A stretch of DNA of 64,000 nucleotides, from assembly GCF_900090145.1 (NCBI RefSeq), contig NZ_FMHI01000005.1:248001-312000 (forward strand), in the 5' to 3' direction. The DNA is from Streptomyces sp. WMMB 322 (GTDB lineage: Bacteria; Actinomycetota; Actinomycetes; Streptomycetales; Streptomycetaceae). The notes below the pieces were generated by a model. That model did not search any database. It was not told where the DNA came from and worked only from the letters and a program-made list of their open reading frames with translations. This document shows, in pieces, positions 43,902 through 49,041 of the stretch. Every line of letters begins with the position of its first letter. Positions within the stretch are counted from its first letter, which is position 1. Position numbers and translations under genes: made by a program.

Positions 43902-45527
43902 TCACTCCCACTCGATCGTGCCCGGGGGCTTGCTCGTGATGTCGAGCGCGACGCGGTTGACGCCGGAGACCTCGTTCGTGATGCGGGTGGAGACGCGGGC
44001 CAGCACGTCGTACGGCAGCCGCGACCAGTCCGCGGTCATCGCGTCCTCGGACGAGACCGGGCGCAGCACCACGGGGTGCCCGTACGTGCGCCCGTCTCCC
44101 TGCACCCCGACGGAGCGGATGTCGGCCAGCAGCACGACCGGGCACTGCCAGATCTCGCGGTCCAGGCCGGCGGCGGTCAGCTCCTCGCGGGCGATGGCGT
44201 CGGCCTCGCGCAGCACGTCCAGGCGCTCGCGGGTGACCTCGCCGATGATGCGGATTCCGAGGCCGGGCCCGGGGAACGGCTGCCGCTGGACGATCTCCTC
44301 CGGCAGGCCCAGCTCCTGGCCGACCATGCGGACCTCGTCCTTGAACAGCTTCCGCAGCGGCTCGACCAGTTCGAACTCCAGGTCCTCCGGCAGTCCGCCC
44401 ACGTTGTGGTGGGACTTGATGTTGGCCGCGCCGGTGCCGCCGCCGGACTCGACGACGTCGGGGTAGAGGGTGCCCTGCACGAGGAAGGCGACGTCCTCGC
44501 CTGCGGCACCCGCCTCGGCGACGAGCTCTGCCTGCGCCTGCTCGAAGACCCGGATGAACTCACGTCCGATGATCTTCCGCTTCTGTTCCGGGTCGGAGGC
44601 TCCGGCCAGCGCCGCGATGAAGCGGTCGGCGGCGTCGACGACCTTCAGCTGCACGCCAGTGGCGGCGACGAAGTCCTTCTCCACCTGCTCCGTCTCGCCC
44701 TTGCGCATCAGCCCGTGGTCGACGTACACGCAGGTCAGCTGCGTACCGACGGCCTTGTGGACGAGGGCGGCGGCCACGGCGGAGTCCACGCCGCCGGACA
44801 GCCCGCAGATGGCGCGCTTGCTGCCGATCTGCTCGCGGATCGCCGCGACCTGCTCGTCGACGATGCTCGCGGTCGTCCAGGTCGGGGAGAGACCGGCGCC
44901 GCGGTAGAGGAAGTGCTCCAGCACCTGCTGGCCGTGCGTGGAGTGCATGACCTCGGGGTGGTACTGGACGCCGTACAGCCCGCGCTCGTCGTTCTCGAAC
45001 GCGGCGACCGGGACCATGTCCGTCGACGCGGTGACCGTGAAGCCCTCGGGGGCCGCGGAGCAGGCGTCGCCGTGCGACATCCACACCTGCTGGTGCGAGG
45101 GGGTGCCCTCGAAGAGCGTGGAGACGCTCTTCGAGACCGACAGGTCCGTGCGCCCGTACTCCCGGCTGCCGGTGTTGTCGACGGTGCCGCCGAGGGACTG
45201 GGCCATCAGCTGGAAGCCGTAGCACAGACCGAGGACGGGGACGCCGGCGTCGAAGAGCGAGCTGTCGAGCGAGGGTGCGTCCTCGGCGTACACGGACGAG
45301 GGGCCGCCGGAGAGAATGACCGCCTTCGGGTTCCTGGCCAGGATCTCCTCCACGGGCATGGTGGAGGGCACGACCTCGCTGTAGATCCGCGCCTCACGTA
45401 CGCGGCGCGCGATGAGCTGCGCGTACTGGGCGCCGAAATCGACCACGAGGACGGTCTCCGGGGCGTCCGGAGAAGCGGAGGCGGATTCCGGGGAGCCTGA
45501 GCCCCGGGGGGCGGGCGCTGATGCCAC
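43902..45527 (-). CDS. guaA: GMP synthase (glutamine-hydrolysing)
   Basis: 541 residues, cytosolic. Converts XMP to GMP using ATP and glutamine. The N-terminal amidotransferase triad is Cys102 (GLCYGFQL), His190 and Glu192 (GVQYHPEV). The synthetase P-loop SGGVDS is at 244-249. The C-terminal dimerisation domain ends [12 protein letters not shown]. The GTG at 45527 adds a short Pro/Ser-rich tail before [17 protein letters not shown] good -10 (TAGAAT) lies upstream at 45646-45641. Works downstream of guaB in this window. Confidence 0.97.
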
Positions 45528-45640
45528 GGAGCGGCTGCCTTTCGGCCTTTACGGCGGTGGTACGGGAGCGTGGGACGGCGTGGACGGCGCTTGTGCACGC
45601 CGTGCCGGAGCGCGGAGCACGTGCTCGCTTCGTACGGCCG

Positions 45641-45646
45641 ATTCTA
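45641..45646 (-). promoter_or_regulatory. -10 element of the guaA promoter
   Basis: TAGAAT on the minus strand, about 115 bp before the guaA start. The -35 is not recognisable; probable leader of ~108 nt. Confidence 0.5.
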
Positions 45647-45694
45647 ACGGGAGGCGCCCGTGGGGCCGCTCGGCCTCCACAGCGGCCTCGTGCA

Positions 45695-45700
45695 TACTGT
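45695..45700 (+). promoter_or_regulatory. -10 element before the 26-codon leader ORF
   Basis: TACTGT five bases before the ATG at 45706. This predicts a leaderless transcript starting at the small ORF. Confidence 0.4.
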
Positions 45701-45705
45701 CGGGC

Positions 45706-45786
45706 ATGTTCGAGCTGCCCGTCACCACCAGCTTCTGGTTCGGCCACGGAACCGGCCCTCACGGCCGCCGTGGTCGAGCTGCTTGA
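45706..45786 (+). CDS. Putative attenuation leader peptide with Phe-Trp-Phe
   Basis: 26 codons: MFELPVTTSFWFGHGTGP then a His/Gly/Arg end. Aromatic codons F10-W11-F12 (45733-45741) resemble the control codons of amino-acid leader peptides, and the M-F start with W/F centre recalls Streptomyces trp leader peptides. It is followed by a strong terminator (45810-45839) and, after an inserted repeat element, a chorismate mutase gene. No ribosome site; probably leaderless. Peptide production is inference. Confidence 0.5.
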   Translation: MFELPVTTSFWFGHGTGPHGRRGRAA

Positions 45787-45809
45787 TCCACCGACGAGCG
45801 ACTCACCGG

Positions 45810-45839
45810 GCGCCCCGGGCCGGCAAAGGCCCGGGGCGC
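45810..45839 (+). terminator. Attenuator-like terminator
   Basis: Perfect 12-bp stem GCGCCCCGGGCC / GGCCCGGGGCGC with GGCAAA loop, then TCTTGG. The 5' arm overlaps GGGCCGG (45817-45823), which can instead pair with CCGGCCC (45752-45758) inside the leader ORF. Confidence 0.65.
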
Positions 45840-45849
45840 TCTTGGTTCA

Positions 45850-46012
45850 GGGGGTGTCCGGCGGATCTTTGAGGACCAGCCCGCGGCGTCGGATGCGGTG
45901 CATCGCGAGGCGGAGGATCGCCCTCGTACTGGGCGTACTCGGGCGACTCCGACAACACAGCGAGGTGCCGTAGCCGGCGTCGCGGGCCCGAGAAGATCCG
46001 CCGGACACTCCC
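45850..46012. mobile_element. MITE-like element with long terminal inverted repeats
   Basis: GTGTCCGGCGGATCTT at 45854-45869 is exactly inverted at 45993-46008. Pairing extends outward with one G-T pair to 45850/46012 and inward imperfectly for about 35 bp more. The 163-bp element has no transposase frame. I see no clear target duplication. Confidence 0.6.
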
Positions 46013-46069
46013 TCGTCGCACCGGGCGGCCCAGGGCTCCGCCGTACGTACGACCTACGAGGACGGAGAC

Positions 46070-46468
46070 GTGAACACCATGAGCACCGAAGCCGCAGAGA
46101 CCACCGGGCGTACCGGGCGTACCGGCCCGGACACGACGGTGGCGGGCACGGCGGGCGGGCGGGAGTCCGCAGCCGCGGTCCGCTCCCGCATCGACGACCT
46201 GGACGCCCGCATCATCGCGCTCGTGCAGGAACGCAGGGCGGTCGCGGTCGGCGACATCCGCCGGGCGCATGCCGGGGCGGGAGAGAGCCGGACCGCGGAA
46301 AGCGCCCGCACCGCACAAAGCGCAGGGACCGGCGAAGGCGCCCGGACCGGCGAAGGCGCGGGCCTGGCCCGTGAGATGGAGATCCTGAACCGCTACCGCG
46401 GCGAACTGGGCCGTCCCGGCACGCAACTTGCCATGACACTGCTCGCACTGTGCAGAGCGCAGCCGTGA
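46070..46468 (+). CDS. AroQ-type chorismate mutase with repeat insertion
   Basis: About 132 residues. Converts chorismate to prephenate for Phe/Tyr synthesis. The first AroQ helix is VRSRIDDLDARIIALVQERR, and the last helices are REMEILNRYRGELGRPGTQL. The pattern resembles the short mycobacterial intracellular chorismate mutase that relies on DAHP synthase for activity. The loop between helices carries a ~25-residue insert of Thr/Glu/Gly/Ala repeats (TGEGARTGEGAG). GTG 46070 has GAGG eight bases upstream; ATG 46079 is the alternative. Possibly regulated by the leader at 45706. Confidence 0.85.
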   Translation: MNTMSTEAAETTGRTGRTGPDTTVAGTAGGRESAAAVRSRIDDLDARIIALVQERRAVAVGDIRRAHAGAGESRTAESARTAQSAGTGEGARTGEGAGLAREMEILNRYRGELGRPGTQLAMTLLALCRAQP

Positions 46469-46759
46469 ACCGGGGCGTGCGCCTCCTCCGACCGGTGCGG
46501 CGTTCGCACAACGCGGCAAATCCGCAGCGCACCGGTCACCCGTAAGGAGCGTGACCGCCGCGTGAGCGGGTTCGTTGGTCCCGGTGACCCCGATGCCCGC
46601 CGGACGTCCGGCGTTCGGGGCGCGCCATCGCAGCGATGAGACGCCCGTTCCTCCTCGTGGGCGGGGACGGAAGTGTCGTGGGACCTCGCTCCGGCGCGAG
46701 TGACCGGTCAGCAGGGGACAGCAGCCCGGTCACCAACTCTCCCCGCGCGGGGAGACAGT

Positions 46760-46789
46760 GGCCGGTCCGGGGGACGCTCCGGACCGGCC
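46760..46789. terminator. Hairpin, possible chorismate mutase terminator
   Basis: 11-bp perfect stem GGCCGGTCCGG / CCGGACCGGCC, 8-nt loop, about 290 bp past the chorismate mutase stop. Confidence 0.4.
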
Positions 46790-47070
46790 GCTCCGCGGAC
46801 CGGGAGTCCCTGCGAGTCGGGAAGATTCTCGGGAGATTGTCGGCCGACGGTAAAAGTTCCGTCCGGCCGGTACGGATGCGGTGACCGTGGTACCGACGCC
46901 TTGCGCGGCACGTGCGCATCCAGCACGATGCACACGAACTCCCTTTCAGGACCCGGCCGTTGACCTGCCGTGCAGCTTGCTGCCGTCAGCCGCGACGGCC
47001 AGGCGGCACTACCCCCCGGTGCCGCTCCTCCAGCCGGGCGCTGCCCTGACGCCCTTGCTGGACGCCAAGA

Positions 47071-47113
47071 GCCCCGTGGCGCCGGCTTCACCACCCGGTC
47101 GGCGCCACGGGGC
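47071..47113 (-). terminator. Hairpin after the GMC oxidoreductase gene
   Basis: 14-bp perfect stem GCCCCGTGGCGCCG / CGGCGCCACGGGGC with 15-nt loop, about 90 bp beyond the stop at 47200; minus-strand exit reads TCTTGG. Confidence 0.6.
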
Positions 47114-47199
47114 CCTTCGCGTGTGCACGGGGTTCCCGGGCGTGTGCGCGGGCCCGCCCCCGCCGGCAGAACTGCCCGGCCGGGGGCGGAACTCGGGGA

Positions 47200-49041
47200 C
47201 TACTCCACCTCCGCGCTCTCCTTCGCCACCGTCTCCTGCCTCCTGGCCGGCACCTTCGGGACGGGCAGCACGGTCAGCCGCAGCGCCCCGAACGCGTCGT
47301 CCGGAACGACCGGTGCGCGCGGCGCCACCGGCGCCATCCGCACGTACTGCGATCCCTGCTCGGGACGCGCGTCCTCCTCGCCCCTGTTGGGCCACATGGA
47401 CATCGCGCGCTCCGCCTGCGCGGTGATGGTGAGCGCGGGGTTGACGCCGAGGTTCGCGGAGACGGCGGAGCCGTCCACGACGGTGATGCCCGGGTGCCCG
47501 TAGAGGCGGTGGTACGGGTCGATGACCCCGCTTGCAGCGTCCGCGCCGATCGGGCAGCCGCCGAGGAAGTGCGCCGTGAGCGGCATGCCCAGCAGCTCCC
47601 CGAGGTTGGTCCCGGCGAAGCCGTTGATGTCCTCGGCGAGATGCCGTGCGGCCTCCGCGCCCTCGGGGATGTAGGCGGGGTTGGGCGCGCCGTGTCCCTG
47701 TCGCGCGGTGAGCAGTCCCTTCCCGAGGCCCTTCGTCTTCCGGTACGTGGTCAGGGAGTTGTCGTGGGTCTGCATCACCAGGCCGATGATGATCCGCTCG
47801 GACCACTTGCGTCCGGAGAGCGACCGCAGGAACAGATTCGGGTGCCGCAGGCAGGTGACCAGGTGTCCCAGCAGCTTGGGCAGCTTCGTTTCGTGGTTCA
47901 CCTGGAGCGTCGTCAGGGCGCTCATCGCGTTGGAGCCCCTGCCGTAGCGGACGGGCTCGATGTGCGTGTGCTCGTCGGGGTGCACGGAGGACGTGATCGC
48001 GACGCCCCGTGTGAAGTCGAGCTTCCGGCTGTCCTTCCACTTCTTGCGGTAGCGCCGCTCGATGGTCTGCGCGCCCACCAGCGCCTCGGAGTTGGTGCGG
48101 GTCAGCTCGCCGAGGCGTTCGGAGAGCCTCGGCAGGGTGCCGGTGTCGCGCATGCGGTGCAGCAGGGTCTGCGTCCCGTACGTGCCGGCTGCCATGACCA
48201 CCTTGCGGGCACGCAGCACAGTCCGGGGGCCCTTGCGCTTGTCCGTCGCGACGCAGGTGACGGAGAAGCCCTGCCCGTCCGGCAGTTCCGCGACCTCGCG
48301 CACAGTCGTCATCGGGTGGACGACGGCGCCCGCCTTCTCGGCGAGGTAGAGGTAGTTCTCGTTGAGGGTGTTCTTCGCGCCGTGGCGGCAGCCGGTCATG
48401 CACTCGCCGCACTCCGAACAGGCCCTGCGCGAAGGGCCCGCTCCGCCGAAGTACGGGTCGGCGACCTCGCCGCCGGGCTCCGTCGTCGCCTTGCCGTCGG
48501 CGTCCTGGCCGTCGCCGAAGAAGACGCCGACCGGAGCCATGTGGAAGGTGTCGCCGACGCCCATCCGCTCGGCGGCCGTCTTCAGATGCTCGTCCGAGGG
48601 CGTCATCGTGGGGTTGAGCCGTACGCCCAGCATCCGCTGTGCCTGGTCGTAGAAGGGCTTCAACTCCTCCTGCCAGTCCGTGATGTGGCCCCACTGGCGG
48701 TCCTGGAAGAAGGCCGGCGGCGGAACGTAGAGGGTGTTGGCGTAGTTCAGCGAACCGCCCCCCACACCGGCGCCTGCCAGGATCATGACGTTGCTGAGCA
48801 CATGGATGCGCTGGATGCCGTAGAGGCCGAGCGCGGGGGCCCAGATGTAGTTCTTCGTGTCCCAGGAGTTCCTGGGCAGGGTCTCGCGGGTGTAGCGGCG
48901 TCCCGCCTCCAGCACTCCGACGCTGTACCCCTTCTCGGTGAGACGGAGAGCGGAGACGGAACCGCCGAAGCCGGAGCCGATGACAATCACGTCGTAGTCG
49001 TACGAACCGCCCTCATTCGGGGCGGAGTTCTCCTCGGGCAC
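47200..49041 (-). CDS. Cholesterol-oxidase-like GMC oxidoreductase with ferredoxin-type Cys cluster
   Basis: 613 residues. FAD-binding VIVIGSGFGGSVSALRLTEK at ~18-37 and a GMC second motif (AGVGGGSLNYANTL at ~91-104). Unusual: C208, C211, C214 and C218 in ACSECGECMTGCRHGAKN form CxxCxxCxxxC, like a [4Fe-4S] ligand set. The C-terminal active-site region contains HFLGGCPIGADAASGV and NLGVNPALTITA. Likely oxidises an alcohol or sterol-like substrate and may pass electrons on rather than to O2. GTG 49041 follows GGAGG by six bases. 85 bp downstream of the aldehyde dehydrogenase, so a sequential alcohol/aldehyde route is plausible. Confidence 0.93.
   Translation of the reverse strand: MPEENSAPNEGGSYDYDVIVIGSGFGGSVSALRLTEKGYSVGVLEAGRRYTRETLPRNSWDTKNYIWAPALGLYGIQRIHVLSNVMILAGAGVGGGSLNYANTLYVPPPAFFQDRQWGHITDWQEELKPFYDQAQRMLGVRLNPTMTPSDEHLKTAAERMGVGDTFHMAPVGVFFGDGQDADGKATTEPGGEVADPYFGGAGPSRRACSECGECMTGCRHGAKNTLNENYLYLAEKAGAVVHPMTTVREVAELPDGQGFSVTCVATDKRKGPRTVLRARKVVMAAGTYGTQTLLHRMRDTGTLPRLSERLGELTRTNSEALVGAQTIERRYRKKWKDSRKLDFTRGVAITSSVHPDEHTHIEPVRYGRGSNAMSALTTLQVNHETKLPKLLGHLVTCLRHPNLFLRSLSGRKWSERIIIGLVMQTHDNSLTTYRKTKGLGKGLLTARQGHGAPNPAYIPEGAEAARHLAEDINGFAGTNLGELLGMPLTAHFLGGCPIGADAASGVIDPYHRLYGHPGITVVDGSAVSANLGVNPALTITAQAERAMSMWPNRGEEDARPEQGSQYVRMAPVAPRAPVVPDDAFGALRLTVLPVPKVPARRQETVAKESAEVE

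Follow-up and report, generated by a model that had tools for sequence, protein, structure and literature searches.

A conserved attenuator-like leader before the chorismate mutase gene in Streptomyces and related actinobacteria

Many antibiotics of Streptomyces are made from aromatic precursors, and control of the phenylalanine/tyrosine branch in these bacteria is little described in the parts of the literature that were compared here. The locus analysed in Streptomyces sp. WMMB 322 raises the question of whether the chorismate mutase (CM) gene is preceded by a leader that adjusts its transcription to the supply of aromatic amino acids and, if so, of which ones. The original prediction, made from the letters of the sequence, proposed an attenuator with phenylalanine and tryptophan as the signals. 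The reading favoured below, to which a probability of roughly four in five is assigned on comparative grounds, is that of a ribosome-mediated transcription attenuator by which CM would be set by charged Phe-tRNA and, in most relatives, by charged Tyr-tRNA as well.

Positions refer to the window, i.e. the whole stretch of 64,000 nucleotides that was analysed, and the features of the leader and its CM gene lie on its plus strand. Two covariance models were used: R1, built from 30 Streptomyces copies, and R2, built from eight DAHP-synthase leaders of the family of Nocardiopsis. The elements that were parsed number 84, the window's own and one from each of 83 loci; further near-identical Streptomyces loci were left out of this set, which includes five of the 30 alignment rows of R1 (the window's copy, L010, L020, L022 and L031), the 25 others being only aligned. 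As the 84 were found with R1, part of their conservation arises by construction, and as R1 contains hairpin P1, one form of hairpin P2 and the terminator (all described below), the elements found with it lean towards these features. Pairs were counted on the 76 CM-type elements, aligned without the eight DAHP-synthase leaders.

The leader in the window

All the features named in the original prediction are found on direct reading: the motif TACTGT (45695-45700), a 26-codon open reading frame (ORF) with Phe-Trp-Phe, a perfect 12-bp stem and the segments proposed to pair, namely CCGGCCC (45752-45758) with GGGCCGG (45817-45823) and CGGCC (45753-45757) with GGCCG (45763-45767). The leader ORF, MFELPVTTSFWFGHGTGPHGRRGRAA (45706-45786), runs from ATG 45706 through 26 codons to a TGA at 45784-45786 and has an in-frame homologue in 84 of 84 parsed elements. 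Its putative regulatory codons, TTC TGG TTC for Phe-Trp-Phe, lie at 45733-45741, the second Phe standing at the position that carries TTT in 80 of the 84.

TACTGT had been taken as the -10 motif; comparison with the relatives gives the better reading that the predicted -10 box is CATACT (45693-45698), two bases 5' of it, since 84/84 parsed elements keep a hexamer of the form xAxxxT, 6-7 nt 5' of the start codon (in four of them the inner ATG, and not an upstream GTG, was set as the start). This spacing leads to the prediction that the leader mRNA is itself leaderless, starting at or adjoining the A of the ATG. A conserved -35 box is not claimed, TTGACA being matched in at least four of six positions in 18/84 elements as against 8.5% of random sites, and in three of six in the window. 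A promoter scan of 44500-47500 found nothing.

Folding places three hairpins along the leader. P1, within the ORF (45737-45780), contains the CGGCC/GGCCG pairing that had been proposed as the competing early hairpin, which exists as the tip of this longer stem. P2 surrounds the leader stop codon (45780-45800) and is represented by varied helices in the homologues. The terminator hairpin (45808-45841), drawn from folding and pair counts, comprises 12 perfect pairs, or 14 with flanking pairs; its stem arms are GCGCCCCGGGCC (45810-45821) and GGCCCGGGGCGC (45828-45839), and it is followed by a weak T-tract, TCTTGGTT, a scan for terminators with a T-run having found none between 44500 and 47500. 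In the predicted antiterminator (45754-45821) the terminator's 5' arm is instead bound by P1, through the loop and 3' arm of the latter, and the stop-codon hairpin forms the tip.

The 140-nt leader, folded by itself, exceeds 200 of 200 dinucleotide shuffles in stability (z = -4.97). It is matched once only in its own genome, both by the DNA search and by R1, and the Rfam covariance models gave no match over 45693-45845 up to E = 5. The fold score and the conservation across the family described below place the leader beyond chance.

Distribution, downstream genes and the window's divergent copy

At the DNA level, 143 of 199 Streptomyces genomes give a match with E <= 0.001, to short pieces in the weakest cases; in a set of 30 relatives the best matches reach 78-85% identity, and this over part of the element. 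R1 matches 197 of the 199 at E <= 0.01. In the family Streptomycetaceae it matches 110/150 genomes, 105 of them at full length with E <= 3.4e-7, and full-length matches occur in 16 of the 17 genera, the remaining genus giving short or weak matches only. Across the class, 61/246 genomes are matched; 22 of these are Streptomyces, and many of the others show the terminator only. Full-length copies were confirmed outside Streptomycetaceae in three families (f17, f35 and f37), the first of which, the family of Nocardiopsis, we take to be Streptosporangiaceae in GTDB. Weak full-length matches of R1 in families f9 and f18 were rejected as the loci are without such a leader. Of the weak class-level matches, L206 and L207 show none, and L198 is without a leader ORF. 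A pattern scan for one form of the element returned at least 120 stretches and, among the matches listed, nearly all belong to Streptomyces or to Nocardiopsis and its relatives.

Leader and CM tend to be missing together. Thirteen genomes without the leader were examined, being 11 of the 40 unmatched in the family plus both unmatched Streptomyces, and 12 of them are also without a CM match at E <= 1e-8 (G204, G211, G219, G223, G231, G235, G238, G241, G249, G253, G304 and G103); in the thirteenth the leader site falls outside the assembly because the CM gene is cut by a contig end. As a control, the same CM query finds CM at 76/76 leader-bearing CM loci.

The original prediction that CM is the gene under control agrees with the relatives: CM comes next in 76 of the 84 parsed elements, three of these (L072, L073 and L077) lying outside Streptomycetaceae. 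In 54 of the 76 the CM frame starts 35-65 nt past the match, and in 75/76 within 103 nt, a count in which some CM starts were set too far upstream. In the other 8/84 elements, all in the family of Nocardiopsis (L074, L075, L076, L078, L079 and L137-L139), the next gene is one that we take to be DAHP synthase, by its family and by mutual similarity. The target would belong to the aromatic pathway in each of the 84.

R2 matches 74/80 genomes of the family of Nocardiopsis at E <= 0.01, some of them weakly, and leaders were read in those matched genomes whose loci were fetched. R1 and R2 cross-match many copies, and R2 finds several Streptomyces CM leaders at full length (best E 4.8e-10), recovering the terminator only in the window's copy. 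Among 60 further loci, 48 have DAHP synthase next, three have neither this gene nor a threonyl-tRNA-synthetase-like one, and nine (L188-L196) carry Thr-rich leader ORFs of the type MKRAAMTTTPESVPAR with a terminator 5' of a gene which is presumably threonyl-tRNA-synthetase-like. The leaders of these nine are reminiscent of the thrL leader of S. lividans, as given in the part of the source consulted (PMC8079986). Peptides of the DAHP-synthase leaders in the family of Nocardiopsis are of the type MQRNFWRFYGYRP or MRTAFWFWYGDGP, and such peptides also occur among L142-L205.

The copy in the window is divergent. It scores 108.5 bits to R1, where other copies of the genus reach 168.8, and its core has TTC for TTT, His for Tyr and a Trp. 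The spacer to the gene is longer, the CM frame (46070-46468, starting at GTG 46070 or ATG 46079) lying about 224-230 nt past the element. This putative regulated gene is a CM of the high-GC type, itself divergent: it scores 57.6 bits to PRK07857 (cut-off 73) and 40.8 to CM_M_hiGC-arch (cut-off 52.15), both NCBIfam models and both below cut-off, and 14 bits to PF01817, and a Pfam scan of it found no family at E <= 0.001. Between 46079 and 46468 a low-complexity insertion rich in Ala, Gly, Arg, Thr and Glu occupies the place of the relatives' GGRRV-type stretch, and the C-terminal end is altered. To judge from its sequence the window's CM looks degenerate. A second and better conserved CM in the same genome (G000:C14:213197-213433; L140 1480-1878, minus strand) scores 78.2 bits to PF01817; it adjoins a gene that we take to be pyruvate-kinase-like. 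Further along the window, 47065-47119 matches the Rfam family F6 (TB sRNA) on both strands, with 42.1 bits on the plus strand against a gathering score of 46; it lies between converging gene ends and is probably a hairpin terminator.

These features admit the alternative that the attenuator is decaying in the window's species, where the second CM could take over. The insertion and below-cut-off scores of the CM, a leader core without Tyr and TTT, the grown spacer and the terminator-only match by R2 would fit such a decay. Against it, the leader has kept its ORF, P1 and its perfect terminator, and the CM frame is still open; complete decay is made less likely by this terminator and by the compensating pairs CCACGG/CCGTGG in P1. 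This alternative, which is compatible with attenuation in the relatives, is judged rather unlikely. The window's leader may now be one for Phe and Trp, or it may be decaying together with its CM.

Sensor codons and the proposed RNA switch

The leader ORF has 20-28 codons and is in frame through the Phe core in all 84 parsed elements, the number of codons 5' of the core Phe varying from 6 to 11 with the frame always kept. The core reads F-x-Y-G or F-Y-G, Tyr being replaced in three elements (by His in the window and L129, by Gln in L123). The core Phe is TTT in 80/84 elements, as against 38 of 1909 Phe codons in long open frames at the 76 CM loci, and the core Tyr is TAT in 77/84, as against 57 of 1337 Tyr codons there; this background was drawn from high-GC3 open frames of at least 200 codons at the fetched loci and not from annotated genes. 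In four elements (L064, L086, L087 and L131) the frame is shifted 3' of the core, so that the peptide tail is altered with nearly the same RNA, which suggests that the core codons and not the whole peptide are under selection.

As regards the amino acids sensed, the Phe part of the original prediction is borne out in 84/84 cores and the Trp part is not general. Trp occurs in the core of 5/76 CM leaders, a frequency that rules it out as the general signal at CM; as it is mostly missing there, the general signal is probably Phe together with Tyr. Trp is present in all DAHP-synthase leaders counted, both the first eight (8/8) and the 44 further ones (44/44), making 52/52. The count leaves out L163, an incomplete match, and L142, L143 and L145, which repeat L137-L139; the 44 were required to fit an aromatic-core pattern, which none of them failed (0/44). 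All three aromatic amino acids depend on the DAHP synthase step, and only Phe and Tyr on CM. The Trp contrast is the strongest hint that amino-acid supply would be read by the codons, but it is tied to phylogeny, as the DAHP-synthase leaders all belong to a single family.

The ribosome might instead be arrested by the nascent peptide, the core F-T/S-Y-G-T-G stalling it on a free aromatic compound and the same RNA switch following. Ribosomes stall with tryptophan on TnaC. The core is conserved by residue, and not just by aromatic content, and P1 begins right at the core, both of which would suit this explanation; arrest is nonetheless improbable, given the conservation at the codon level that keeps the rare TTT and TAT, the frame shifts 3' of the core in 4/84 elements, and the difference between CM and DAHP-synthase cores by Trp, the amino acid of the extra branch.

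In the favoured reading, attenuation by translation of the core codons, transcription would start at the leader ATG. With Phe plentiful, the ribosome would reach the stop codon and leave, P1 and the terminator at 45808-45841 would form, and transcription would end. With Phe short, it would stall at 45733-45741 and mask P1's 5' arm. The rest of this hairpin, namely its loop and 3' arm, would then be free to pair with the terminator's 5' arm, P2 serving as the tip, so that no terminator would form and CM would be transcribed. Once the ribosome had moved on, P1 would occupy the antiterminator strand.

The structural parts of this scheme are conserved to different degrees. In the 76 aligned elements 98.2% of the terminator's cells are paired and 47 show a double change, as against 9.4 in shuffles; each of the 84 has a GC-rich terminator as well as a hairpin within its ORF. 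P1 pairs in 95.1% of cells as against 94.5% when shuffled, hardly above the shuffles because its columns are so conserved, and has 6 double-change cells as against 1.4; by stability, the P1 region has a mean z of -2.99 and falls in the best 5% in 70/84 elements. The antiterminator pairs in 75.9% of cells overall and in 84.1% in its outer helix, with modest covariation (63 double-change cells as against 43.7 +- 9.9, a value equalled or exceeded in 10 of 500 shuffles). Exact CCGGCCC:GGGCCGG pairing, which had been proposed as the means of breaking the terminator, was given up as a conserved antiterminator, many relatives carrying CTGGTCCGG instead; what is conserved is the broader pairing of the P1 loop and 3' arm with the terminator 5' arm. 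Lack of conservation of the short ORF or of the alternative pairing had been named as grounds for abandoning the original prediction, and both recur in the relatives, the ORF with its Phe core in 84/84 and the outer helix at the frequency just given.

A helix that has its 5' arm at the stop codon and comprises at least five pairs is present in 66/84 elements (GCCUG/CAGGC, GUCUG/CAGAC, GCUUG/CAAGC and others), a count without a shuffled counterpart; the longest helix at this place averages 5.02 pairs as against 4.16 when shuffled. The stability of the region is mild (mean z -1.01; 24/84 in the best 5%).

Folding of the spacer indicates that the antiterminator is truly available to the 5' arm of the terminator. 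The mean upstream pairing of this arm is 0.76 as against 0.57 with shuffled spacers, 78/84 elements lying above their own shuffled mean and 32/84 being reached by at most one of 20 shuffles. In simulations of the switch, done at equilibrium, with no kinetics, on the transcript up to the terminator loop, with a stall represented by covering 15 nt from the core Phe, the median upstream pairing was 0.78 with a stalled ribosome, 0.69 on the free transcript and 0.68 with the ribosome at the stop codon, given a realistic footprint of 28 nt. In 44/84 elements the stalled value is the higher by more than 0.1, and in 9/84 the at-stop value; in the window it is 0.84 stalled and 0.93 at stop. A median of 0.05 at the stop codon was rejected as proof of a switch: it arose only with everything upstream masked, and the contrast nearly disappears with the 28-nt footprint. 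The complete free leader folds as P1 plus terminator in the window and in most other examples printed. Equilibrium folding thus gives no proof that ribosome position sets the choice of fold, which is something we infer, and the switch would have to be kinetic. Attenuators generally switch kinetically.

An ORF with Phe codons, a terminator between this ORF and the gene, and an alternative pairing that excludes the terminator are all found at the locus. That the ORF encodes a small protein, on a leaderless mRNA ending at a terminator that serves this gene alone, and is set beside a CM with its own promoter by accident of neighbourhood, is very improbable: its frame kept in 84/84 elements, the strong hairpin at its end, the 230 nt to CM in the window and a ribosome-dependent switch unproven by folding would suit this explanation, while the distance to the CM frame (35-65 nt in 54/76, within 103 nt in 75/76), the change of the peptide tail on frame shift and the joint absence of leader and CM count against it.

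Relation to known leaders and significance

The closest known system is the aroR leader of Corynebacterium glutamicum, reportedly described by Neshat et al. in 2014. Like the element studied here it is an actinobacterial leader peptide with an aromatic core 5' of an aromatic pathway gene; it carries Phe-Tyr-Phe, precedes aroF and is reported to respond to Phe and not to Tyr limitation, according to the part of the source consulted (PMC11802643). The likeness of the two is one of description, and they differ in target, aroR controlling DAHP synthase (PMC11802643, in part) and the window's leader putatively CM. The place before DAHP synthase is taken by the leaders of the second family, CM being the next gene in the window. 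The pheL leader of E. coli, which controls pheA (CM-prephenate dehydratase), is likewise an attenuator that senses Phe-tRNA before a CM activity, in another lineage and with another gene fusion; this likeness, too, is one of description (PMC11802643, in part).

In Streptomyces and Corynebacterium the trp leaders, trpL1 (MFAHSTRNWWWTAHPAAH) for instance, likewise combine a leader ORF with competing GC-rich hairpins and differ in having a run of Trp codons and trpE as the target (PMC8079986, PMC1262725, both in part); the trp leader ORF of S. lividans is leaderless (PMC8079986, in part). Within the present set, the DAHP-synthase leaders (MQRNFWRFYGYRP...) share the TATGGC core, the hairpin in the ORF and the terminator with the CM leaders; they differ by Trp in 52/52 cores, by the absence in many of a residue between Phe and Tyr, and by their target.

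As far as the consulted parts of these sources extend, the RNA-seq catalogue of S. lividans holds eight leaders and none at CM (PMC8079986), a comparative survey of Actinobacteria describes T-boxes 5' of ileS and structures at genes for Trp, Cys and Leu, with none conserved for other amino-acid pathways (PMC1262725), and the CM leader is not named among the 79 premature transcription units of S. griseus (PMC8914203). A description of the CM leader was not found in the literature covered, most subscription papers lying outside this coverage, nor in the consulted parts of PMC2965389, PMC4833913 and PMC1173090. A warning for the CM leader comes from S. coelicolor, in which the codons of the ilvB leader were altered without effect (PMC1262725, in part). 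By its sequence, the CM leader is a widely conserved attenuator-like element of a known type, with a putative target that is new with respect to the sources compared.

A broader proposal, which is held tentatively and at somewhat less than even odds, is that one ancestral cassette has come to stand at different entry points of aromatic biosynthesis (CM in Streptomycetaceae and two further families, DAHP synthase in a fourth), its sensor codons being retuned to the branch of the target (with Trp at the enzyme that serves all three amino acids and mostly without it at CM), the UUU and UAU codons, rare in these high-GC genomes, serving as the sensor and the hairpin at the stop codon aiding the antiterminator. 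The two gene contexts, with sensor codons that differ as the pathway predicts, would provide a natural experiment. If the attenuator reading is true, nearly every Streptomyces would have a simple Phe/Tyr sensor at CM that is missing from Rfam and, in the parts consulted, from the existing lists of attenuators (PMC8079986, PMC1262725).
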